Virus record (IMG/VR): IMGVR_UViG_3300025168_000830
Coordinates: 1-20,978 of that record
Length of the DNA stretch: 20,978 nt
Strand: one strand, 5' to 3'
DNA from: a virus
Shown here: positions 1 to 10,044 of the stretch, one piece after another
Position numbering within the stretch: position 1 is the first letter of the stretch
Layout: the number at the start of each line of letters is the position of its first letter
The notes under the pieces: model-generated
What the model was told of the DNA's origin: nothing
Seen by the model: only the letters and a program-made list of their open reading frames with translations
Database searches by the model: none
Position numbers and translations under genes: made by a program

Positions 1-265
1 CTTCGAAAGACCTCGCACTGGAAACGCTGGATAGTACCTTTTTACTACAGGCAGTTAGTATCAATCTTACATCGACAATCCTACATGTCGCTCTATTTTA
101 TATATAGTGATTGCTAAATACATTTAACATCAACACATATTGATTGTAGATGGTAACATACATTTTTATCTGACACTTTTCGATGTAAAGAATTAGCTCC
201 TTGTCTCATTTCTCGATGTTGATCTATCTTGCTGCATTCTTATATATAATTATACATAAGGGCGC

Positions 266-440
266 GATGTTATGCGCGCGCGTGCGCGTGATCGTGCGCG
301 CGTGCGATCCCATGGGGCCGCGTGCGCGTGCGCGCGGTATTGGAGACGCGAGGGCGTGCGGGAGCGTGCGGGGGCGTGCGCGCGTATATAAACGCGCGAG
401 GGCGCGCCTCAGGGCGCGAGGGCGCGCAAGGGGGCGGCGT
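266..440. repeat. GC-rich low-complexity tract with Z-DNA-like alternation
   Basis: The tract is built from repeated GCGCGTGCGCG, GGGCGTGCG and GCGAGGGCGCGC tokens, interrupted by one short AT island (GTATATAAA near 384-392). Runs of alternating CG/TG steps could favour left-handed DNA; that is inference. It lies next to an AT-rich stretch, giving an abrupt composition step near 260. No unit length is fixed, so this is simple-sequence expansion rather than a true tandem repeat. Confidence 0.6.
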
Positions 441-523
441 TGTGAGCCATGGCCGCTCTCAGAGGCGCCTAGACGGGCCAGGGAGAAGCCTCAGCCTCGC
501 AGCAGGCGCAATCCCACCCCCAT

Positions 524-563
524 GGCCTCTCGTGGCCTCTCAGGGCCTCTCAGGGGCGCTCAG
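524..563. repeat. 10-bp tandem repeat (GGCCTCTCRK), about four units
   Basis: The octamer GGCCTCTC starts at 524, 534 and 544, followed by a degenerate fourth unit (GGGGCGCTCA) near 552-561. The 10-bp period is close to one helical turn. It sits in the gene-free GC-rich region and has no evident coding role. Confidence 0.6.
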
Positions 564-655
564 CAGTGAGCAAGGGCGAGCGGCGCCCTGTAGGCGGCTG
601 TGGGCCCGTGGGGACGACTGCGGCGCGCGCTGCCGGCCGTCCTGGCCCCATGCAT

Positions 656-691
656 GAAAAATCCCCCCACCCCGTGTGAGAGGGCAGGGGG
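656..691 (-). terminator. Likely intrinsic terminator for the leftward operon
   Basis: On the minus strand a C-rich arm (691-682) pairs over 10 positions with a G-rich arm (about 672-663) across an 8-9 nt loop, then runs into ATTTTTC. The stem is complete only in minus-strand RNA, where two positions become G-U wobbles; in plus-strand RNA one of these is an A-C mismatch. It lies about 65 bp past the stop of the 362-aa gene, which suits termination of the leftward run. A second hairpin, GGGCCC-GTAT-GGGCCC, lies at 720-735. Confidence 0.55.
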
Positions 692-735
692 CAGGGGGCG
701 AGGGGGTGTGAGTCTCAGCGGGCCCGTATGGGCCC

Positions 736-757
736 ATAACTAAGGGGGCGCAAGTCT
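736..757 (-). repeat. Gene-end motif copy A (22 bp, 20/22 match to 1862-1883)
   Basis: The minus-strand sequence contains AGACTTGCG followed by a C-run and TTAGTTAT. It abuts the stop codon of the 362-aa gene. The same 22-bp block recurs at 1862-1883 with two mismatches, just after the stop of the 109-aa gene. The core GAGACTTGCG also occurs at the 3' end of the unrelated gene at 4287. Confidence 0.6.
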
Positions 758-1845
758 CAGCCGAGCCAGGACAGGGTGACGGCGCCATCTGCCAGGGGCT
801 GTGCTGAGTCGTGGCCGCGAAGGCTGAACAGGTCGGCCACCGCGCCAGCGCCTCGGCTGGTTTTAGTGCGCAGGATTACTGCACCGAATCCATCCCTGTA
901 CCTGTGGTCGCTTAGATCTCCATCGATGCTGGGGACCGTGATGGAGTCAAGCCCTGAGAGGATGGTGACGCGATCCGGGATCGGCGCGCCCTTCTTTATG
1001 GCCACCGGAATGGCAAGGCGGAAGCCCTCGCGCAAGGCCGCGAGACCGTCGCGGCATGCTGTGGGCCGATCGGCCGCGAATGATGCTGTGACATCCACCC
1101 CGGCGGCGCGCTGCGCGATCAAGCCGAGGGGGCCGCCTACAGGGGCCTTGCAATATTCGTATGCAGTCAAGCCAGGATTCGCCGCAAGGCGTTCTGTGAT
1201 CGGCGCGGCGGTGTGGGGGCTGGTCTCGAAGCCGTACCGCTCGCGAAGGCTTAGCGCCTCGCCTGGGGTGATGTGGACCGGCATTCCATGCCATCCCCCG
1301 GAACTATTCGGCCCCTCATCGGTGCCGCGTAATCTCACGGCCAAAGTCTCACCCGCGAGCCGAGCGGCGGCGTAATGGCGGGCGATGCTCCAAAGGATAG
1401 CCCGCGCATAAATTTCGGGGTCCCAGATCATGCCGAGGGTGCGACGGCCCCTAGCCGCTGAGACTGTCGACCCAAGCCCGCCGTGTCCAGAAAAATTAAG
1501 ACAACCACCCTCTGCAGATCCGCAGCCTGCAGTCGCCCAGGGACAACCATTATGGGCCAGCGCGGCGGCGGTGAGGCCCTCCCGCTCGGCTAGTTCCAGC
1601 AGGGAGGGGATGAACCCCCGCGCGGTGGTGCTGCCCTCGTTGCCCGGCGTGATGGCGCGGGCCAGGGCTTTAGCTGGCAAATGATGAAGGATGAGCCCGC
1701 GACCATGGCCGAGGGCCTCGCCTTTCATCGTCTTGGGGTTTGACGTGGTGAGCAGTTTCGGCAGGCTGAACCCGAACCGCGCGAGGAGATTTCGCACGTC
1801 TAGGGGTATCGCGCCGGGGGTGGCCGCGTGGATGAGTGAGGGCAT
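757..1845 (-). CDS. Unknown 362-aa Cys-containing phage/plasmid-type protein (possibly GP88-like)
   Basis: Function unknown. The part around residues 95-170 has the layout GCPWATAGC...GGCLNFSGHGG, then Arg-rich residues (AARGRRT), a W-D-P-E segment, and VRLRGTDEGPNSSGGW. This order resembles a family of phage/plasmid proteins of unknown role (mycobacteriophage GP88-like: Cys cluster, Arg-Arg-Thr, then RLNGTSD). That match is from memory and is the main uncertainty. The Cys residues could bind a metal, which is inference. The start is the first ATG, directly behind a C-rich leader (TTACCCCTTACACAGAA) with no Shine-Dalgarno. It is the last and largest gene of the leftward GC-rich run and is followed by a terminator-like hairpin. 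Its composition is far more GC-rich than genes right of 4.2 kb. Confidence 0.75.
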   Translation of the reverse strand: MPSLIHAATPGAIPLDVRNLLARFGFSLPKLLTTSNPKTMKGEALGHGRGLILHHLPAKALARAITPGNEGSTTARGFIPSLLELAEREGLTAAALAHNGCPWATAGCGSAEGGCLNFSGHGGLGSTVSAARGRRTLGMIWDPEIYARAILWSIARHYAAARLAGETLAVRLRGTDEGPNSSGGWHGMPVHITPGEALSLRERYGFETSPHTAAPITERLAANPGLTAYEYCKAPVGGPLGLIAQRAAGVDVTASFAADRPTACRDGLAALREGFRLAIPVAIKKGAPIPDRVTILSGLDSITVPSIDGDLSDHRYRDGFGAVILRTKTSRGAGAVADLFSLRGHDSAQPLADGAVTLSWLG

Positions 1846-1861
1846 TTCTGTGTAAGGGGTA

Positions 1862-1883
1862 ATAACTAAAGGGCCGCAAGTCT
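1862..1883 (-). repeat. Gene-end motif copy B with adjoining TTACCCC leader
   Basis: This is the second copy of the 22-bp block at 736-757 (20/22 identical). It fills the short gap between the 109-aa gene (stop at 1892) and the 362-aa gene (start at 1845). It runs directly into the TTACCCCTTAC leader at 1851-1863. The whole 46-bp intergenic space is therefore made of two motifs that recur elsewhere in the window. Confidence 0.6.
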
Positions 1884-1891
1884 TAGGCGCC

Positions 1892-2221
1892 CTAGGGGGC
1901 CGCTAGGGGCAGCACCTCAGCCAGATTGGGAGGGCCTACGGGGTAGGCGTAGCGATCGCCGCCATCCATCGACAGCGCGGCACCTAGGACGACCCAATGC
2001 TCAGCGCGCGGGCGATCCGCTAGTAGCTCAGAATTAAGCCGCGCAACGGCGGCGCGGGCGGCAGCATCTGGACCTGCGGCGAATGGAAGAGTGGCGCGAT
2101 ACTGGGAGGAGCGATCGCGGCCGCGCTTGATTACGGCGGCCCACTTGCCGCCTTGAGTGTTAGTCGGCCCCCGGTACTCAACGGAGCAACCGGGAACGTA
2201 GCGAAAGGGATGGGATGACAT
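1892..2221 (-). CDS. Hypothetical protein, 109 aa
   Basis: Unrecognised. The protein is soluble, with an N-terminal basic segment (VEYRGPTNTQGGKWAAVIKR) that reads like a small beta-rich domain, and an Ala-rich helix near residues 52-68. The start ATG follows the same leader block as the gene at 3014 (27 of 29 bases identical, 2219-2247 versus 3012-3040). The gene carries both HIP1 octamers seen in the window (1952-1959, 2111-2118), which supports long residence in a cyanobacterial genome. It lies 21 bp after the stop of the upstream 110-aa gene and 46 bp before the 362-aa gene, so co-transcription is likely. Confidence 0.65.
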   Translation of the reverse strand: MSSHPFRYVPGCSVEYRGPTNTQGGKWAAVIKRGRDRSSQYRATLPFAAGPDAAARAAVARLNSELLADRPRAEHWVVLGAALSMDGGDRYAYPVGPPNLAEVLPLAAP

Positions 2222-2247
2222 TTTGAAATAGGGGGCAAGGGGTCAGG
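2219..2247 (-). repeat. C-rich leader repeat, copy 1
   Basis: This 29-bp block includes the ATG of the 109-aa gene and matches 3012-3040 at 27 of 29 positions. In gene orientation it reads CCTGACCCCTTGCCCCC, then TATTTCAAAATG. The match ends at or just after the start codon, so it is a conserved translation-initiation region and not a gene duplication. No Shine-Dalgarno is present. Confidence 0.7.
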
Positions 2248-2575
2248 AGTCGAGAGCGCCTAGCGCCTCGTCAATACGCCAGCCGACGAAACTCTCTAGA
2301 TCGTCCGTATCAGGACCGGGCCAGATTTCGCCCTCAGGATCGCCAGACGGATCGATGAGCCAGTGGCCCACCTCGTCGGGATCGTCTGGACAGTGGCCGG
2401 GCTTGACTGTCCACCCTGTGCACTCCTGCAGCAGGTCGGACAGCTCCCACCACTCAAGATGGACACCCTCGCGCCATAAGTCGGCGGCGGCAACAGGTGG
2501 GGTGGCAGGCAGGGCAAGAGAGGCGGCCGCGAATGGCGCGGCCATGATGGCAGAGGGGTTGATCATGCGAGACAC
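2243..2575 (-). CDS. Hypothetical acidic protein, 110 aa
   Basis: Unrecognised. After an Ala-rich N-terminal third (residues about 10-32, hydrophobic enough to be a weak membrane or signal segment) comes an acidic, Trp-rich domain with HLEWWELSDLLQECTGW, then a PDDPDEVGHWLIDPSGDPEG segment and a C-terminal FVGWRIDEALGAL helix. Starts at 2575 (MSRMIN) or 2566 (MIN) are both possible. The longer start overlaps the upstream HTH gene by 13 bp, which suggests translational coupling. Downstream it is separated from the next gene only by the shared C-rich leader. Confidence 0.6.
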   Translation of the reverse strand: MSRMINPSAIMAAPFAAASLALPATPPVAAADLWREGVHLEWWELSDLLQECTGWTVKPGHCPDDPDEVGHWLIDPSGDPEGEIWPGPDTDDLESFVGWRIDEALGALDS

Positions 2576-2754
2576 CAGCGGCGCGCGGTTGTATGGGAGA
2601 CGCCGAGGGCGGCCCCAATGGCGCGGAAGGATTGACCGGCGGCGCGCATGCGGCGCGCGCGCTGTTGTGGGCTCTCAGTGGCCCACAGCAGGATCAGGAC
2701 CGGGAGGATGATCAGGGCCAGGATCGCGGCCGTAATGGTGGTGATGGCTTCCAT
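2563..2754 (-). CDS. Membrane-anchored helix-turn-helix miniprotein, 63 aa
   Basis: Residues about 6-25 (ITAAILALIILPVLILLW) form one hydrophobic membrane span. Residues about 31-60 (QRARRMRAAGQSFRAIGAAL, then GVSHTTARRW) match the common phage/transposase homeodomain-like helix-turn-helix pattern. A single span joined to a DNA-binding motif suggests a membrane-tethered regulator or a DNA-anchoring peptide; this is inference. The ATG at 2754 sits 2 bases beyond the stop of the upstream membrane gene (GTGATCATG junction), and the 3' end overlaps the next gene by 13 bp. A longer frame exists upstream, but its extra N-terminus is antisense-like Arg/Ser-rich sequence inside the neighbouring gene. 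Confidence 0.6.
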   Translation of the reverse strand: MEAITTITAAILALIILPVLILLWATESPQQRARRMRAAGQSFRAIGAALGVSHTTARRWCLA

Positions 2755-2756
2755 GA

Positions 2757-3014
2757 TCACGCCTCGCTCGCTGATCCAGCGGCGGCCACTAGGGACGCTG
2801 CGCCGGTAAAGGCGCAACCCATAATCGCGGCCGTGGCCATAGCTTGGAACCTGTCGCCCTTGTCCTGAGCAATGGAGACGAGGGGAAAAATGGAGAGCAG
2901 GCAAACAGCGGCCGAGGCGCTGAACAGGGCGACGCGGGCGAATTTCTCGCGGCGCTCACGGCGCGCAATAGCGCGGCGAATGTGAGGAGCTGTGGATGGA
3001 TGAAGATTTGACAT
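2757..3014 (-). CDS. Small two-span membrane protein, 85 aa
   Basis: The N-terminus is strongly basic (IRRAIARRERREKFAR, residues about 12-27). It is followed by two hydrophobic segments (about 28-48 and 58-80) separated by QDKGDRFQ. By the positive-inside rule the N-terminus is cytoplasmic. The two-span plan and size recall holin-like or accessory membrane proteins, but no family is recognised. The start ATG lies in leader repeat copy 2 (3012-3040). The stop is 2 bp before the ATG of the membrane-HTH gene, so the two are almost certainly co-translated. Confidence 0.6.
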   Translation of the reverse strand: MSNLHPSTAPHIRRAIARRERREKFARVALFSASAAVCLLSIFPLVSIAQDKGDRFQAMATAAIMGCAFTGAASLVAAAGSASEA

Positions 3015-3040
3015 TTTGAAATAGGGGGTAAGGGGTAAGG
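3012..3040 (-). repeat. C-rich leader repeat, copy 2
   Basis: This is the partner of 2219-2247. In gene orientation it has TTACCCC twice in tandem before TATTTCAAAATG. Immediately upstream (3039-3065) are a 14-bp perfect GC palindrome, GGGGGGCGCCCCCC, and an overlapping GCCCCC/GGGGGC hairpin, so the leader could be partly sequestered in an RNA stem. A shortened relative (ATTTTGAAAGGGGGTAA in plus orientation) precedes the 46-aa gene at 3210-3227. Confidence 0.7.
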
Positions 3041-3071
3041 GGGGCGCCCCCCCGTGAGAGGGGGCGGGTGA

Positions 3072-3212
3072 TTAGTCGGCCCAGCGGCTGAAATTCTCGA
3101 GCCATTCGGCGGCCTCTTGTTCCTCGGTCTTGCGGTTCAGGATTGAATCACAGGTGGCGAGGGCGGCAGCGACTGAGTCAAGGTCGGCGCGGAGTTGAGA
3201 AGAAAGGGACAT
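3072..3212 (-). CDS. Small hypothetical protein, 46 aa
   Basis: Reading from ATG at 3212 gives MSLSSQLRADLDSVAAALAT, continues through CDSILNRKTEEQEAAEW, and ends LENFSRWAD. It is acidic and predicted helical throughout. Support comes from its leader, which repeats the CAAAATGTC start context of the genes at 2221 and 3014, and from its position in the leftward run. No family is recognised. Confidence 0.5.
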   Translation of the reverse strand: MSLSSQLRADLDSVAAALATCDSILNRKTEEQEAAEWLENFSRWAD

Positions 3213-3233
3213 TTTGAAAGGGGGTAAATTTTC

Positions 3234-3248
3234 AGCGGTTTTGCCGCT
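3234..3248. promoter_or_regulatory. Small hairpin upstream of the 46-aa gene
   Basis: AGCGG-TTTTG-CCGCT is an exact 5-bp inverted repeat about 22 bp ahead of the start at 3212. It may be a leader stem or a protein site; no further evidence is available. Confidence 0.3.
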
Positions 3249-3340
3249 TGAGTGAATTGTTGCCGCTAGGGGTCAAAAGTGGAACCCGTTGCGTGACACC
3301 TGTTCGATTGGCACACTTCATGCCGGCCATTTTTCGCAGG

Positions 3341-3496
3341 ATTTTTAAAGTCCCTATAAGTCAAAACCAAAATTTTTAAAGCTCCTAAATTGCAAAATCA
3401 AAATTTTTCAAACCTGCAAAATTGCGCAACCAAAAAAAATCGAGTTGCAAAATTTCCCCAGCAAAAAAAATCGAATTGCTGAACATTGCGGCCAAA
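3341..3496. repeat. Five diverged tandem units of about 31 bp with phased A/T tracts
   Basis: Units begin at about 3341, 3372, 3403, 3435 and 3466. The first two share ATTTTTAAAG plus most of their remainder; units 4 and 5 share AAAAATCGARTTGC. A-tracts start at 3369, 3400, 3432, 3463 and 3494, a spacing of 31-32 bp, close to three helical turns, which predicts intrinsic curvature. The array lies between a terminator (3494-3525) and the 46-aa gene. Iterons of an origin or partition site, or an upstream curved element, are possible readings. There are no unique spacers, so it is not a CRISPR array. Confidence 0.7.
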
Positions 3497-3525
3497 AAAA
3501 TAACCCCGCACGGTGGCGGGGTGGT
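3494..3525 (-). terminator. Intrinsic terminator after the 48-aa gene
   Basis: In the minus strand, CCCCGC - loop - GCGGGG is followed by TTATTTTTTT. It lies just past the stop of the 48-aa gene (3534). The G+C stem plus T-run is the textbook layout, and the orientation fits leftward transcription. Genes left of it therefore probably need their own promoter in 3213-3490. Confidence 0.75.
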
Positions 3526-5047: not shown

Positions 5048-5383
5048 TCAATACTCGTCCGTGTAAGTCTTGTAATTGACGATCTTGTGGATCGTTGATC
5101 GGTCACAGCCATACCTCAACGCGATCTGCGCTCCGGTTAGTCCATCCTCGGAAAGGCTGCGTATAGCCACGATGTCCGCCGGAGCAAACCTCGAGTTGTA
5201 GTTATCGCAGCCCTTGAGTGGTGGGTTCAAGCCCAATGGGGTGCGCTTTGCGTATGCATAACGCTCAACAGTCTTGAACCTCTCTCCACAATCGAGGCAA
5301 CGGCAATACCGCCAAATTATGTCTTGCCTGCTCTCAGTGGTGGTAACGCGGGTGTTGTTCGAGTTGCACGTACGACAATTCAA
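5048..5383 (-). CDS. NrdR-like zinc ribbon fused to a phage-type helix-turn-helix
   Basis: Residues 1-40 carry CRTC...CLDCGERFKTVERY with Cys pairs C3/C6 and C29/C32 and the CGERFKTVER ending typical of the NrdR zinc ribbon. The NrdR ATP-cone that should follow is missing. Instead the C-terminus (about 72-105: APADIVAIRSLSEDGLTGAQ, then IALRYGCDRSTIHKIV) is a helix-turn-helix of the type often found in phage proteins. A DNA-binding regulator is likely. TTG at 5383 gives the NrdR-like start MNCRTC and a TTGA overlap with the ligase stop; GTG at 5416 is an alternative that adds 11 residues and overlaps the ligase by 37 bp. Confidence 0.75.
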   Translation of the reverse strand: MNCRTCNSNNTRVTTTESRQDIIWRYCRCLDCGERFKTVERYAYAKRTPLGLNPPLKGCDNYNSRFAPADIVAIRSLSEDGLTGAQIALRYGCDRSTIHKIVNYKTYTDEY

Positions 5384-6177
5384 AACTTCTTCATCGCCAA
5401 CGCCCACAAAGGGCACCTTCTGTCAGCGCCAAGCTCACGCTGCAGATCGTGCATAAACACCTTCACCACAATCCCGTCAGTAGGCAAAGACTCGAACAGA
5501 TCTCTCATCTTCCAGCGTTGGTGCAACACCTCAACCTCCTCAGGCCGAGTGCAAACCAAGGTGTCAGGCACTAGGAATCCCCACTCACTAATCACCTGCA
5601 ATGAGGTCAGCTCATTTGCCTCAGCATCAACCAGCGTGTAAGCCATAAACACCAAGCCATCACCACCAGGCGTCTTGTTCAGTGATCGCGCAGCATTCTT
5701 CTGCGAACACTCCGGATCAACGTCATACAGCTCACCATTCACTTGCACTACACCAATTGCCTCGATCGTCCTTGGGATTGAAGGCACAAGACTTACAGCA
5801 GGCATTGCGCTACGGCCTGACCTCGTCCAAGCGGAATCAAGCTTGCCGTCGACATAACGCAGAGCGACTGCACATCCGTCAATCTTTGGTTGCACGATCA
5901 ATGGCGTGCCTTCAGGCAACCTCTCCATCCATTCGCTGAACGGCCTGTTGTCCAGACTCAATAAAGCTGTCCCGCCACCAGGCTTCTGCAGTTCAGGGGC
6001 ATGCGGAGCTACTGCCTGCAGCTGCTTCACCAGCGCATCAAAGTCTTCGTCGGACATCACAGGAGTACCTGCGCGATATGCCGCATCCGCATTGCGGACC
6101 TCGTCGCGCAAAGAGGCGACAGACATCTGGGTAAAGATCATGGGTAAGCCGTGATCATATGGCCTGCTGTCGGTCAT
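5380..6177 (-). CDS. Minimal NAD+-dependent DNA ligase (adenylation domain only)
   Basis: Seals DNA nicks after self-adenylation with NAD+. Residues about 20-60 match domain Ia (VMSDEDFDALVKQL). LLSLDN (72-77) matches the conserved link. The nucleotidyl-transfer motif I is KIDG at 98-101 with catalytic Lys98. Motif III is VNGELYD (147-152), motif IV TDGIVVKV (233-240), and motif V the terminal WALAMKKF (258-265). The protein stops right there: no OB fold, zinc finger, helix-hairpin-helix or BRCT domain, where bacterial LigA has about 670 residues. T5-like phages split ligase into two genes, so a partner might be elsewhere; the next gene is not one. It starts 8 bp after the tail-like gene. Confidence 0.85.
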   Translation of the reverse strand: MTDSRPYDHGLPMIFTQMSVASLRDEVRNADAAYRAGTPVMSDEDFDALVKQLQAVAPHAPELQKPGGGTALLSLDNRPFSEWMERLPEGTPLIVQPKIDGCAVALRYVDGKLDSAWTRSGRSAMPAVSLVPSIPRTIEAIGVVQVNGELYDVDPECSQKNAARSLNKTPGGDGLVFMAYTLVDAEANELTSLQVISEWGFLVPDTLVCTRPEEVEVLHQRWKMRDLFESLPTDGIVVKVFMHDLQRELGADRRCPLWALAMKKF

Positions 6178-6185
6178 GGCAATGG

Positions 6186-6941
6186 CTATTTCAAAGCTTC
6201 CTTAAATGCCCTTCGGAACGTGCCTTCCGCTCTTCTCTCGACCACTTTTGCCACAAAGCTTTGGTAGTCAAAGATCTTGGGTGTCCTTGGCTTCGATTTG
6301 GCATAGGTGAACAGCAGCTGCAGATCAAGAGTGTCTTTTCCTTTGGAGCCCTTCACTCGATAGATGCCGTTGCCTAAGCGATTGCTCCTTGCACTGACAG
6401 ACCTGAACCTCATTCCTCCCGACTGCCCTCCAGGTCTCATGTCGGGCACTGAGAAATAGCGGTAAGCACCTTTTGATTTGCTCCCATAACGCGACTGCAG
6501 TCCATTCCAAGCTTTGGTGTATTCGCCTTGAGATGGCTTCCCATAGCTGTTCAGTTTCAAATTGCTGCGAACGGGAACTGGGTAATAGCTCGGAGGAGCA
6601 ATGCCAGCCGCGTGAAGGTAACGGCTGAACTTTGTTTCGTAGGCAGGACCGCCAACCGTTGACGGATATAAATACCTGGCAGGATCATTTCCTTTGCCAA
6701 CATCTTTTCTAAAGTCGAGTTGAACTTCGTAGTTAGAAACAACTTTGTAGTTCAAGCTTTTCAACGTGAACTGGTTCGGCCTTTCAAAAACCATGTTCAT
6801 GCGATCAGGCACAAACTTATTTGCAATATCGAAACCAAGCCTGCCGATAGCGACCCTTGCGGCCTTAGGCACCTTGGTTCTGGCGTACAGATCTAATCCT
6901 TTGAGAACAGCATCAATGTTGTGGGTAATAGTTGCCGCCAT
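6186..6941 (-). CDS. Phage tail/head-tail-like protein, 251 aa
   Basis: Residues about 5-40 form a helix (NIDAVLKGLDLYARTKVPKA) followed by FDIANKFVPDRMNMVFERP. The middle is rich in Tyr, Gly and Ser. The C-terminus (LLFTYAKSKPRTPKIFDYQS, then FVAKVVERRAEGTFRRAFKE) has the shape of minor tail or tail-completion proteins, in which a basic, aromatic core precedes a C-terminal helix. This is a resemblance only. ATG at 6941 has a GAGAGG Shine-Dalgarno 8-9 nt upstream and is preferred to TTG at 6947. It is the first gene of the leftward run after the origin-like region, an odd partner for a ligase. Confidence 0.55.
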   Translation of the reverse strand: MAATITHNIDAVLKGLDLYARTKVPKAARVAIGRLGFDIANKFVPDRMNMVFERPNQFTLKSLNYKVVSNYEVQLDFRKDVGKGNDPARYLYPSTVGGPAYETKFSRYLHAAGIAPPSYYPVPVRSNLKLNSYGKPSQGEYTKAWNGLQSRYGSKSKGAYRYFSVPDMRPGGQSGGMRFRSVSARSNRLGNGIYRVKGSKGKDTLDLQLLFTYAKSKPRTPKIFDYQSFVAKVVERRAEGTFRRAFKEALK

Positions 6942-6980
6942 AACCAATACCTCTCGGGTCTCGTAACCGCACGGTAGCGA

Positions 6981-6999
6981 GTCTTGGCAAAATCAAGAC
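6981..6999. promoter_or_regulatory. Inverted repeat GTCTTG-N7-CAAGAC
   Basis: Exact 6-bp arms about 40 bp upstream of the tail-like gene, with ACCG-CA-CGGT close by at 6966-6975. Possible operator or leader hairpin for leftward transcription. Confidence 0.35.
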
Positions 7000-7010
7000 G
7001 CCGACTGGGA

Positions 7011-7282
7011 TATTACGGTCATTACGCACCCATAACGGTCACCGTTATGCCAAAAGCCCTTCTGCTCCAAGGGTTCTGCCCTTATAACTAACGATATTAC
7101 ACTAAAATATATATATATATAAGAGAGAGTCTCCCTGCCTTCTCACCCCCTTGTCCTCTCTTGCATGTATATGTATATATGCCTTATTTACCGTAATATC
7201 GTTATGGAATGCTTAGATCAGCTGCAGCGCAGTGGGTTTGACCATTACGGACCCCGTTATTGCCACCGTAATGACGTAATGC
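7011..7282. other. Candidate replication origin: CCGTWATG box array around a (TA)n tract
   Basis: About ten copies of CCGTWATG or its complement lie in three clusters: 7011-7049 (four, including the perfect dyad CATAACGGT-C-ACCGTTATG at 7031-7049), 7191-7206 (two) and 7243-7281 (four). Between the first and second clusters lie TAACGATATTAC (7089-7100), its exact reverse complement at 7193-7204, and a TA-repeat tract at 7104-7122. Iterated boxes, a duplex-unwinding-like AT tract and a position immediately beside a primase-helicase gene match P4-like origins. An operator array is the alternative. Confidence 0.6.
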
Positions 7283-9787
7283 CTATATCTTGTCAATCTC
7301 GATCTTTGTAGTCCTGGAGGGCTTGCCAATACCAGAGAAATGCCTTCCGCCCCCTACAGAAGACCCCTTGAGCCTCCTGAGCATGGTTGTGTAGCAGTTC
7401 GCCCATGACGTGTCAGCAAGGATTGCTGAAAGACCTTTGGAGCTATTGCTGACGTAGAGGCATCGTTCATCGCTTTCAACTTTCAAGCCATGCCTGCCCA
7501 GTGCCCTGACAGCTTCTCCCTTGTCAAGATCAAAATCATTGACCTTGCCCATCACTACTTCGATCAGCTCGCCCACTGACCTTGTGAGTGTCCGGGAGTC
7601 TCCTTCAATCCTTAGCTGATGCTGAAGGATGTGTTGCAAGCATTTATCTTCATCGGAAACTTCTGTTTGCTCAGCAAAGTCATCAAAATTATTAGCCTTA
7701 ATAATTGCAATGGCATCAGCCTCGCTAATAACTTCAGAGCTTTGCAGTGACCAGGCGCCAGCAAGAAGTGTTCCATATTGATCGCCTTGGCGCTGGCTGC
7801 CATGAATGTCAGCAAAAGCACGGGAGAAAATTTTGTTGTTTTCTCTTATGACAGGAATAAGTTGAACAGTTCTATTAATTAAAGCCCTGCCATATTCCCG
7901 TGTTATATGAGAGTCAAGCATGCTGTCGAGCACTTCCCAGTGCTTAGACCTTTTAGCCTCATCCTGTATCGAGGCTGGATTTTTTAAGGTCAACTGAGCA
8001 AAGCGTGAACGATCTGCGCCTTGTTTTAAGTGTGTAGATATTGACGACATCATGAACATTGAGCGGACATGGAAGCGGTTGGCCTCGCCTGTAGAGCTGC
8101 CCTTGATAGCTGTGGCTTGAGATTCAGAAGACGCAACCCTGGCCAGTGAGAGGATGTTTTGCATTCTGAGCTGGTCGGCTCTCTCGTTCGACTCGGCCTC
8201 GTCAAAAATAATTGGCATTGCATCTGATCGAAGTGACTGACGGATGCCTGCTTCAGTCGTGTTGCCAACGACAAAGAGCCCCATATCCGAGAGCAATGGA
8301 TGAACGAAGCGATCAAGGATGGCGGACTTCCCGGATCCAGCCGCTGCAGTCAGCCAGATGTGTGGGCGCCATTGCAGCGCCCCGCAGATTGGGGCAAGTG
8401 CAACCCACCCAGCCAAGAGCATTCCAGAGGTTGGATTTTCCCAAAGAAACTGCTCGGCAATTGAGAGAGTGTGAAAGGCTTCCGCGTCAGAAAGAGGGCT
8501 CGTGGTGCCGTGACCTTCAAGTTTTGACAATCGCTGATAGATGTAGCGCGATTCAAAAAGCTCATTGACTGGCTGAATCTTGTCATCAGCGATCAAACGA
8601 TCGCCAAGATGGAGCACTGTGCGACCTTTGTCCCACCATGCCCCACGCCCTCTAATCCTTAATGGGTCATACACGCCTTGATCAGCCCCAAGCTGAAAGA
8701 GCATTGACGCAGCTCTTACCCAATCAACAGCACCTTTTCCGTTAGGTGCCCATGCTTCCCAAAATTCAAGCGGCGCTAGAGAGACCAGGTTGGTGGAGGT
8801 GTGTGCAGCCCTTGAAAGCCTTGTCACCTGACCAGTGCCGTGAGGCTGATAAAAATATGCGTCAGCGTCAAAGCCAAGGGAGGTGAAGTAGGAACCGGAC
8901 TCTATTTCTGACGGCTCAGGCTCACTTGGGGGGTCAGGGATTGATTGCTGTTCGGCTTCTGCAGGCAATGGCTCTGCAATTTGCTTATGACTTCTTGCGT
9001 ACTCAAGAGCCTCATCTGGAGTCCAAGATGCATCGGCAAGATCCCAGCCAGCAGGAACATTGTCTGGCGGATCAATGATTGCGATCTTTTGCACACCAAG
9101 CTTTAGCAGCATTTGCGCCACTTGATCCATTGCTTGCAGCCCAGGAGCGTCAGCATCCGGCCAAAGCAGGACTGTGTGCCCGACAAGGATGGAAAAATCA
9201 GTCTTGCGAAATGCTTTGCAGCCTGACGACCAAGTTGTGGCGATGAAGTCAGGGAACAGCTTTGCTGCTGCATCGCATGCTTTCTCCCCTTCAGTGATGA
9301 TTACTGTCTTGGAGCACGCCTTGATTTTGGCGTGATTAAGGAGAGGTCTTGGCGCATTAATAACACCTGGCTTCCATGCCCGGCCGTCATAGAGAAATGG
9401 TCTATATCTCTTCCCTGGAAAACGAGCGACCAAAAAGTTGTCGCTGTAATACCAGACGTTTTCAGCACCTTTAACAGGCGGCTCGGCAGGCTTCTTTTCG
9501 ATGCCTAGAAAACGCTCAACTTCAACGATGGCGTCTTTGAACTCTAAATTCATTTTTCGCATCAGCAGGTCCATGCCTGCCCCTGCACCTCCGTTGTGAT
9601 CCTTGCCACCGCACTTATTGCAGAACCAAGAGCCAGAGCCGTCTTTGTCATCAAAGCGATAGCGGTCTTTGCCCCCGCAGAGCGGACATGGCCCGTGCTT
9701 GTCTGTTAGCTGCTCGGCACTGACACCTGCGACGGCACCAAGAATCAAGGGCCACCGCCCCTGAGCGAGATCAATTGTTTTATTCAC
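7283..9787 (-). CDS. Primase-helicase (P4-like zinc ribbon, TOPRIM, AAA+ ATPase), 834 aa
   Basis: Makes primers and unwinds DNA at the replication fork. The N-terminal zinc ribbon has C34/C37 and C56/C59 in CPLCGGKDRYRF...WFCNKCGG, the phage P4 primase type. TOPRIM motifs follow: IITEGEKA with Glu166 and LWPDADAPG with Asp211/Asp213. The C-terminal ATPase has Walker A AAAGSGKS (481-488), Walker B IIFDEAE (526-532) and a later RSRF arginine-finger-like site. The segment at 260-300 is a Pro/Glu-rich linker. The start is GTG at 9787, overlapping the previous stop as GTGA. It ends beside the CCGTWATG array, its probable binding region. Confidence 0.9.
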   Translation of the reverse strand: MNKTIDLAQGRWPLILGAVAGVSAEQLTDKHGPCPLCGGKDRYRFDDKDGSGSWFCNKCGGKDHNGGAGAGMDLLMRKMNLEFKDAIVEVERFLGIEKKPAEPPVKGAENVWYYSDNFLVARFPGKRYRPFLYDGRAWKPGVINAPRPLLNHAKIKACSKTVIITEGEKACDAAAKLFPDFIATTWSSGCKAFRKTDFSILVGHTVLLWPDADAPGLQAMDQVAQMLLKLGVQKIAIIDPPDNVPAGWDLADASWTPDEALEYARSHKQIAEPLPAEAEQQSIPDPPSEPEPSEIESGSYFTSLGFDADAYFYQPHGTGQVTRLSRAAHTSTNLVSLAPLEFWEAWAPNGKGAVDWVRAASMLFQLGADQGVYDPLRIRGRGAWWDKGRTVLHLGDRLIADDKIQPVNELFESRYIYQRLSKLEGHGTTSPLSDAEAFHTLSIAEQFLWENPTSGMLLAGWVALAPICGALQWRPHIWLTAAAGSGKSAILDRFVHPLLSDMGLFVVGNTTEAGIRQSLRSDAMPIIFDEAESNERADQLRMQNILSLARVASSESQATAIKGSSTGEANRFHVRSMFMMSSISTHLKQGADRSRFAQLTLKNPASIQDEAKRSKHWEVLDSMLDSHITREYGRALINRTVQLIPVIRENNKIFSRAFADIHGSQRQGDQYGTLLAGAWSLQSSEVISEADAIAIIKANNFDDFAEQTEVSDEDKCLQHILQHQLRIEGDSRTLTRSVGELIEVVMGKVNDFDLDKGEAVRALGRHGLKVESDERCLYVSNSSKGLSAILADTSWANCYTTMLRRLKGSSVGGGRHFSGIGKPSRTTKIEIDKI

Positions 9788-10044
9788 TTGACTTTGAGTA
9801 CAAATTGCTGGACTTGTTTTTTAGACCTAAATTCTTTGCGCTTAAGCTTTCTCTGGATGTAAGCCAAACGCTCTGGGAACTCCCTCCAAGCTTTCTCTAA
9901 GAGGGTTTGACGCAATGCATGATCAAGCGATTTGAACTCGATCGACTCGCCAGTCAGGTAGTAATAGACGAGGTCGTCGGTCAACCAGTCCTCAAGGCGC
10001 TTGAGATAGTTTTCTTTTAAGCGTTTTTGAAAATCAGTTTTCAT
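9784..10044 (-). CDS. Small basic helical protein, 86 aa
   Basis: Unrecognised. Highly charged and helical, starting MKTDFQKRLKENYLKRLEDW, with an aromatic DDLVYYYLTGE segment and a very basic C-terminus (RKLKRKEFRSKKQ). It overlaps the ribbon-helix-helix gene by 11 bp and the primase by 4 bp, so the three are translationally coupled. A role as a replication accessory or loader fits the context but is inference. Confidence 0.65.
   Translation of the reverse strand: MKTDFQKRLKENYLKRLEDWLTDDLVYYYLTGESIEFKSLDHALRQTLLEKAWREFPERLAYIQRKLKRKEFRSKKQVQQFVLKVK

Follow-up and report, generated by a model that had tools for sequence, protein, structure and literature searches.

The window analysed here is the whole of the 20,978-base IMG/VR virus record IMGVR_UViG_3300025168_000830, which is an incomplete record. 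It carries an array of short repeated boxes in the gap between a primase-helicase gene and a minor tail protein gene. The primase-helicase contains a zinc ribbon (residues 30-64; PF08273, E 1.5e-15), a weak match to Toprim (residues 161-228, E 0.089; relatives reach 5.6e-5) and a P-loop (GSGKS, residues 484-488), and it groups with phrog_35358 'DNA primase'. The array starts 2 bp past the primase open reading frame (ORF), with its first box ending at 7281 and the ORF at 7283, so that the boxes run up to the primase stop codon, as a first-pass annotation of the letters had noted.

That annotation described about ten CCGTWATG boxes in three clusters and proposed that they form a replication origin recognised by the adjacent protein. 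The three clusters (7011-7049, 7191-7206 and 7243-7281) are present, and a region previously recorded as an inverted-repeat arm is both that arm and a fourth cluster (7087-7101; CGTTAGT and TGTAATA on the minus strand), which brings the count to 12 boxes. Their order is four outer, two inner, a TA-rich tract (~90 bp), two inner and four outer (Table 1). The 19-bp perfect dyad at 7031-7049 (CATAACGGT-C-ACCGTTATG) was also confirmed and is formed by the opposed boxes 9 and 10, 12 bp apart. The 12-bp inverted pair TAACGATATTAC (7089-7100) and GTAATATCGTTA (7193-7204) around the TA tract is formed by the two inner pairs.

Matches to the box are far denser in the array than chance would give. Allowing at most one mismatch, we found 35 matches to CCGTWATG in the window against 19.9 expected; 10 of the 35 fall within the 271 bp of the array, where 0.26 are expected (Poisson P ~3e-13). 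Four of the six exact copies lie inside it. The proposed CCGTWATG box is thus enriched, and comparison with relatives shifts its register to CGT-N-A-N-R, of which CGTWATG is the window variant. Looser copies in the window read CGTTATT, CGTAATA, TGTAATA and CGTTAGT.

Table 1. Features of the box array and its flanking genes in the window.
Feature	Position	Strand	Remarks
Whole array, candidate replication origin; 12 boxes, six per side of TA-rich tract	7011-7281		Position and geometry kept in 122 of 124 homologous loci
Box 1, CGTAATG, outer, primase side	7275-7281	+	
Box 2, CGTAATG, outer	7267-7273	+	
Box 3, CGTTATT, outer	7255-7261	+	
Box 4, CGTAATG, outer	7243-7249	-	
Outer-inner spacer, primase side, AACCCACTGCGCTGCAGC...	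7207-7242		Imperfect dyad in roughly one third of relatives
Box 5, CGTTATG, inner pair	7200-7206	+	8 bp from box 6
Box 6, CGTAATA, inner pair	7192-7198	+	
TA-rich central tract, presumed DNA-unwinding element	7102-7191		TA run ~7107-7122; second TA-rich stretch ~7166-7180
Box 7, TGTAATA, inner pair	7095-7101	-	
Box 8, CGTTAGT, weak copy, inner pair	7087-7093	-	8 bp from box 7, 44 bp from box 9; position fits conserved geometry, letters fit poorly
Outer-inner spacer, distal side	7050-7086		No significant dyad overall
Box 9, CGTTATG, distal outer cluster	7043-7049	+	
Box 10, CGTTATG, outer	7031-7037	-	
Box 11, CGTAATG, outer	7020-7026	-	
Box 12, CGTAATA, outer	7011-7017	-	
Primase-helicase gene, 834 aa	7283-9787	-	Zn-ribbon, weak Toprim, P-loop, C-terminal region
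Primase residues 814-831, covarying with box letters	7295-7348	-	Covariation analyses
Primase residue 816, His	7340-7342 (codon)	-	
Minor tail protein gene (phrog_1924), next gene on primase strand	6186-6947	-	Not conserved beside array in relatives

We gathered relatives of the primase from viral contigs, bacterial (cyanobacterial) genomes and phage records, and tested the stretch behind each primase gene for enriched words. This yielded 128 distinct close homologues with readable flanks. Four had no single assignable box type and were set aside (arrays of mixed letters in L010 and L093; little or no array in L098 and L186), which left 124 loci for analysis, including Synechococcus phage S-H1 and Bdellovibrio phage phi1422. 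A script assigned the box labels, a few of which are ambiguous (GTTACG/GTAACG). Directly behind the primase, 122 of the 124 loci carry seven or more boxes of the type assigned to that locus, and 97 loci have 11-13 boxes. The most enriched word in nearly every locus belongs to the CGT-N-A-N-R family, with the variants CGTAACA, CGTTACA, CGTAAGA, CGTGAGA, CGTTAGG and CGTGAGG. The first relative compared, L007 (primase 65% identical, gene block collinear throughout), has an array of GTTACG/CGTAAC boxes around a TA tract in the same gap. Phage S-H1 (primase 50% identical) has CCGTTAGG/CCGTTCGG boxes at the equivalent place, and seven of the eight CCGTT[AC]GG copies in its 37.7 kb fall inside the array. 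In phi1422 the array is retained at 33% primase identity over the aligned part.

The layout is constant while the letters of the boxes vary from phage to phage. Five or six boxes stand on the left in 101 of 122 loci, and six on the right in 72 of 122. Inner boxes are 8-9 bp apart and in 94 loci point outwards ('--' left, '++' right), around a box-free centre with a median of 96 bp in relatives. The distance from inner pair to outer cluster is most often 43-44 bp. The commonest outer arrangement is a 12-bp opposed pair, and the distal outer cluster most commonly takes the form -,+,+,+ at 12, 11 (or 10) and 9 bp. The window agrees with this geometry, its distal cluster having steps of 12, 11 and 9 bp and lying 44 bp from the inner pair. 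Relatives with the primase nearly always have the array too.

The two outer-inner spacers of the window share a conserved sequence, about ACCCnnTGCnnnGCAnnGGGT, and they may serve a structural role or bind a second protein. Among the loci analysed, significant dyads occur in 37% of primase-side spacers versus 10% of distal spacers; because of these proportions we do not claim a conserved hairpin.

One Synechococcus genome, HJ21-Hayes, contains three primase-plus-array modules (L092, L096 and L103, on contigs C17, C8 and C6, respectively), all with GTTACA-type boxes.

The array might instead be an operator, with the primase or another protein on the boxes controlling the next gene or the primase itself and with no origin function. 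In favour of this, the array sits between genes, upstream of one that runs in the same direction, and in many loci a ribbon-helix-helix gene directly follows it. Yet the gene after the array differs among relatives (minor tail, ribbon-helix-helix, clamp or nuclease-like) while the array and its geometry persist, and where the ribbon-helix-helix gene is missing, as in the window and L007, the array is the same. A plain operator for the next gene is unlikely because that gene varies and because one box type occurs with different next genes; an operator for the tail gene in particular is rejected, since the next gene varies. Furthermore, we detected no promoter-like match in positions 6800-7500 of the window (cyanobacterial promoters may differ), and a 270-bp symmetric array with a TA-rich centre would be unusual for an operator. 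We therefore regard an operator as improbable. A search with the tail protein alone returned three loci, and the minor tail gene is judged to be no part of the primase-array system because it is not conserved next to the array in relatives.

The replication-origin reading is further informed by covariation between the boxes and the primase. We appended the box letters to the protein alignment (124 sequences, effective number 52) and computed mutual information with average product correction. For box letter 6, residue 816 scores highest of all columns (7.3 standard deviations), and residues 823, 814 and 828 also score highly. Arg816 occurs with C at letter 6 in 62 of 62 loci, Trp816 with GG at letters 6-7 in 33 of 33, and Tyr816 with GA at letters 6-7 in 23 of 24, with only the mixed array of L155 departing from this. 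All 11 loci with G at letter 4 have Ser814 (11/11). The two features can occur together, as in L047, which has Ser814 and Trp816 and the box GTGAGG. The alternation of residues 814, 816 and 828 suggests that they may lie on one face of a beta-hairpin.

Many loci come from the same clades, and a tree test and a simulation were meant to answer this. As a safeguard against effects of common descent, the tree used primase residues 1-700 only. Residue 816 is inferred to change 12 times on this tree, each time together with a change of letters 6-7, and six of the best seven columns (482 in total) fall within residues 814-831 (hypergeometric P 5e-9). None of 1738 simulated neutral characters of similar rate matched the observed overlap. 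These results bear on a second alternative, in which a host factor or a different early protein, such as the 86-aa product of 9784-10044, binds the boxes, and the link to the primase tail reflects shared ancestry only. Mutual information with this correction leaves some phylogenetic signal, and among the neighbouring proteins covariation was computed for the primase only, both of which leave room for such a binder. The coincidence of all 12 changes, with no simulated character near it, and the confinement of the signal to the last 20 of 834 residues nonetheless make this explanation a long shot.

The hybrid array of L155 (IMGVR_UViG_3300016265_001324) lies behind the primase stop and has GTGAGA boxes in its primase-side (left) half and GTTACA boxes in its far (right) half. 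The GTGAGA half fits the Tyr816/Ser814 tail of its primase. L155 could have arisen by recombination with a junction in the central tract; it could also be an intermediate in evolution or a product of misassembly.

In more distant relatives, with primases ~31-39% identical, the array is often not adjacent to the primase, yet clusters of GTNA-type boxes still rank with the most enriched words. These include GGTAACA in phi1422 (adjacent to the primase), GTTACA in Acinetobacter phage Acjo_20 (upstream) and CGTTAG in Pseudomonas phage ZRG1 (4.6 kb off, beside a minor tail gene), as well as GGTAGC in Aeromonas phage ST4, GGTAAC in Touem01, GGTWACC in Jeremy and GGTATC in PHB04. When the tails are aligned by hand, Arg at the position matching residue 816 goes with C at letter 6 in five of five cases (phi1422, Acjo_20, KLER1-1, PBb001 and MT835930). 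Microcystis phage Mwe-JY13 has GGTAATG-type boxes, and its His at the equivalent of 816 goes with T at letter 6, as in the window. We count these far relatives as supporting evidence only. Separately, Yersinia phage fHe-Yen8-01 (L293) has 9-13 clustered copies of GGAACA/CTGGAACA at 24145-24495, ~7.5 kb from a homologous primase; this cluster is possibly an origin with unrelated box letters.

All the evidence here comes from sequence. Taken together, the concentration of boxes, their retention in relatives and the joint changes of letters and C-terminal residues on the tree support the proposal that the array is an origin recognised by the adjacent protein. We consider it very probable that the array is a phage replication origin and that the adjacent primase-helicase, with its zinc ribbon and putative Toprim domain, is its own initiator. 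The remaining explanation, a centromere-like partition site or a DNA-packaging (cos/pac) site, is the least probable of all: iterated boxes are typical of such sites too and a minor tail gene adjoins the array in the window, but the box letters covary with primase residues, par genes are absent beside the array, the minor tail gene is no constant neighbour, and the terminase gene of S-H1 lies ~2 kb off and is not adjacent to the array.

Several observations weigh against the origin reading. First, L098 and L186 have the primase and little or no array, and no GTNA array was found in the stretches read of Mecenats66 and phiT5282EW. Second, His816, the residue of the window primase, pairs with several box types, so that the code is loose there; His816 may read boxes loosely. 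Third, the helicase and C-terminal parts of the protein match no solved origin-binding domain by sequence. Finally, the GC-skew switch that the first-pass annotation had looked to at the array did not appear clearly: the minimum in the window is broad (7.5-10 kb), that of S-H1 lies away from the array, and we regard the measure as uninformative.

If the array is an origin, the last ~20 residues of the primase-helicase would read the boxes, presumably by direct binding. Six boxes per side suggests one box per hexamer subunit, and thus a double hexamer around the tract, with each side seating one helicase ring. The TA-rich tract would melt between the two rings, which would then move apart while the fused primase lays primers, giving bidirectional replication. 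The initiator would thereby combine primase, helicase and origin reader in one protein.

The predicted origin resembles several known systems. In phage-inducible chromosomal islands (PICIs), the origin lies directly 3' of the initiator gene, two iteron sets surround an AT-rich region, and the primase may be fused to the initiator; SaPI Rep seems to occupy its iterons as a pair of hexamers (PMC7581432). Close relatives of the window likewise have the array immediately 3' of the initiator gene, as in SaPI Rep/ori and the pri-rep-ori of Gram-negative PICIs, with two sets of boxes (here six per side) flanking an AT-rich region. Iteron recognition by the initiator C-terminal domain is a further PICI feature, and the covariation of residues 814-831 with the box letters may point to a counterpart here. 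Unlike PICI initiators, the protein has no DUF927 or D5_N helicase match: searches of the window with PF06048, PF08706 and PF19263 (DUF927, D5_N and DUF5906) gave no match at E<=10, and these families were set aside for the helicase. PICIs are also satellite elements without their own capsid and terminase, whereas the close carrier S-H1 encodes terminase, coat and tail proteins. Box letters (CGTNANR), counts and spacings were compared within this phage group only.

The first-pass annotation had called the protein a P4-type primase-helicase. This holds for the N-terminal zinc ribbon, which is homologous to that of P4 alpha (hhalign E 3.5e-21, residues 3-98). Beyond residue 98 there is no alignment to P4 alpha, and the origin-binding domain 1KA8 is not among the hits at E<=10 (by sequence only); the rest of the protein is thus without a sequence match to the P4 alpha helicase, 1KA8, D5_N or DUF927. 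The annotated type 1 repeats of the P4 origin (545-648 of phage P4, L288) follow the series ++ (10 bp), 43, -, 22, +, 11, +, 10, +, which resembles one half of the array described here (++ 8-9, ~44, -, 12, +, 11/10, +, 9, +). The boxes of Bordetella phage PHB04 (L289, 27579-27794) have steps of 8, 44 and 22 bp. P4 differs in its repeats (TGTTCACC) and in the division of its sites, with GGTGAACA iterons, between ori and crr ~4.5 kb apart, whereas the boxes here form a single contiguous CGTNANR array.

Two other systems are alike in how specificity varies. In the Vibrio cholerae phage-inducible island-like element (PLE), the DNA-binding domain of the initiator RepA covaries with its iterons, as here, and cognate initiator-iteron pairing is required for replication (PMC8263062). 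RepA differs in being a RepA_N initiator that recruits other factors and has three ~30-bp semi-palindromic iterons, and PLE varies by whole-module swaps versus the single-residue drift seen here. In geminiviruses, iteron positions are conserved while their letters diversify between close relatives (PMC12548392). The conserved positions with changing letters are a likeness to the present array, whereas geminivirus Rep is a rolling-circle protein of single-stranded DNA plant viruses, and no homology is implied. The predicted origin appears to work like that of a PICI or of P4, and we file it as a member of neither. No earlier description of the array was found in the literature searched, whose coverage mostly excludes subscription journals.

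A natural recognition code is possible, in which residue 816 would set letters 6-7 (Arg with C, Tyr with GA, Trp with GG) and Ser814 would go with G at letter 4, the two being independently combinable as in L047. Origin identity would then shift by single-residue steps while the six-plus-six double-hexamer layout stays fixed, and the P4 origin would correspond to half of this design. We give this fuller reading an even chance of being right.

Elsewhere in the window, the left end (1-3500) is ~65% GC versus ~50% in the rest. This end probably belongs to the virus and is not a chimera, because L007 bears a homologous ORF at its matching end. A 265-aa protein encoded at 5380-6177 (minus strand) matches the adenylation domain of NAD-dependent DNA ligase, with the other ligase domains apparently absent, and L007 encodes this protein too. 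A small protein at 5048-5416 (minus strand) has a weak NrdR-like zinc ribbon and a homeodomain-like helix-turn-helix; its phrog_20467 label is HNH endonuclease. No known RNA or tRNA was found in the window.

The loci assembled here amount to over 100 natural pairs of initiator and putative origin that share one geometry and differ in few letters and residues, and they make testable how initiator specificity shifts without loss of the origin. A layout described as unique to phage-inducible islands is perhaps a general design shared with full-size phages, which is also testable; the full-size phages in this group would be a counter-example to a PICI-only layout. In uncultured phages, clustered GTNA boxes around a TA-rich gap near such a primase could serve in finding origins. 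Origin identity bears on the incompatibility of co-resident prophages, and the three modules of HJ21-Hayes are a possible case for origin incompatibility among resident elements. It also matters for defences that target origins, as in the case of PLE and Odn (PMC8263062).
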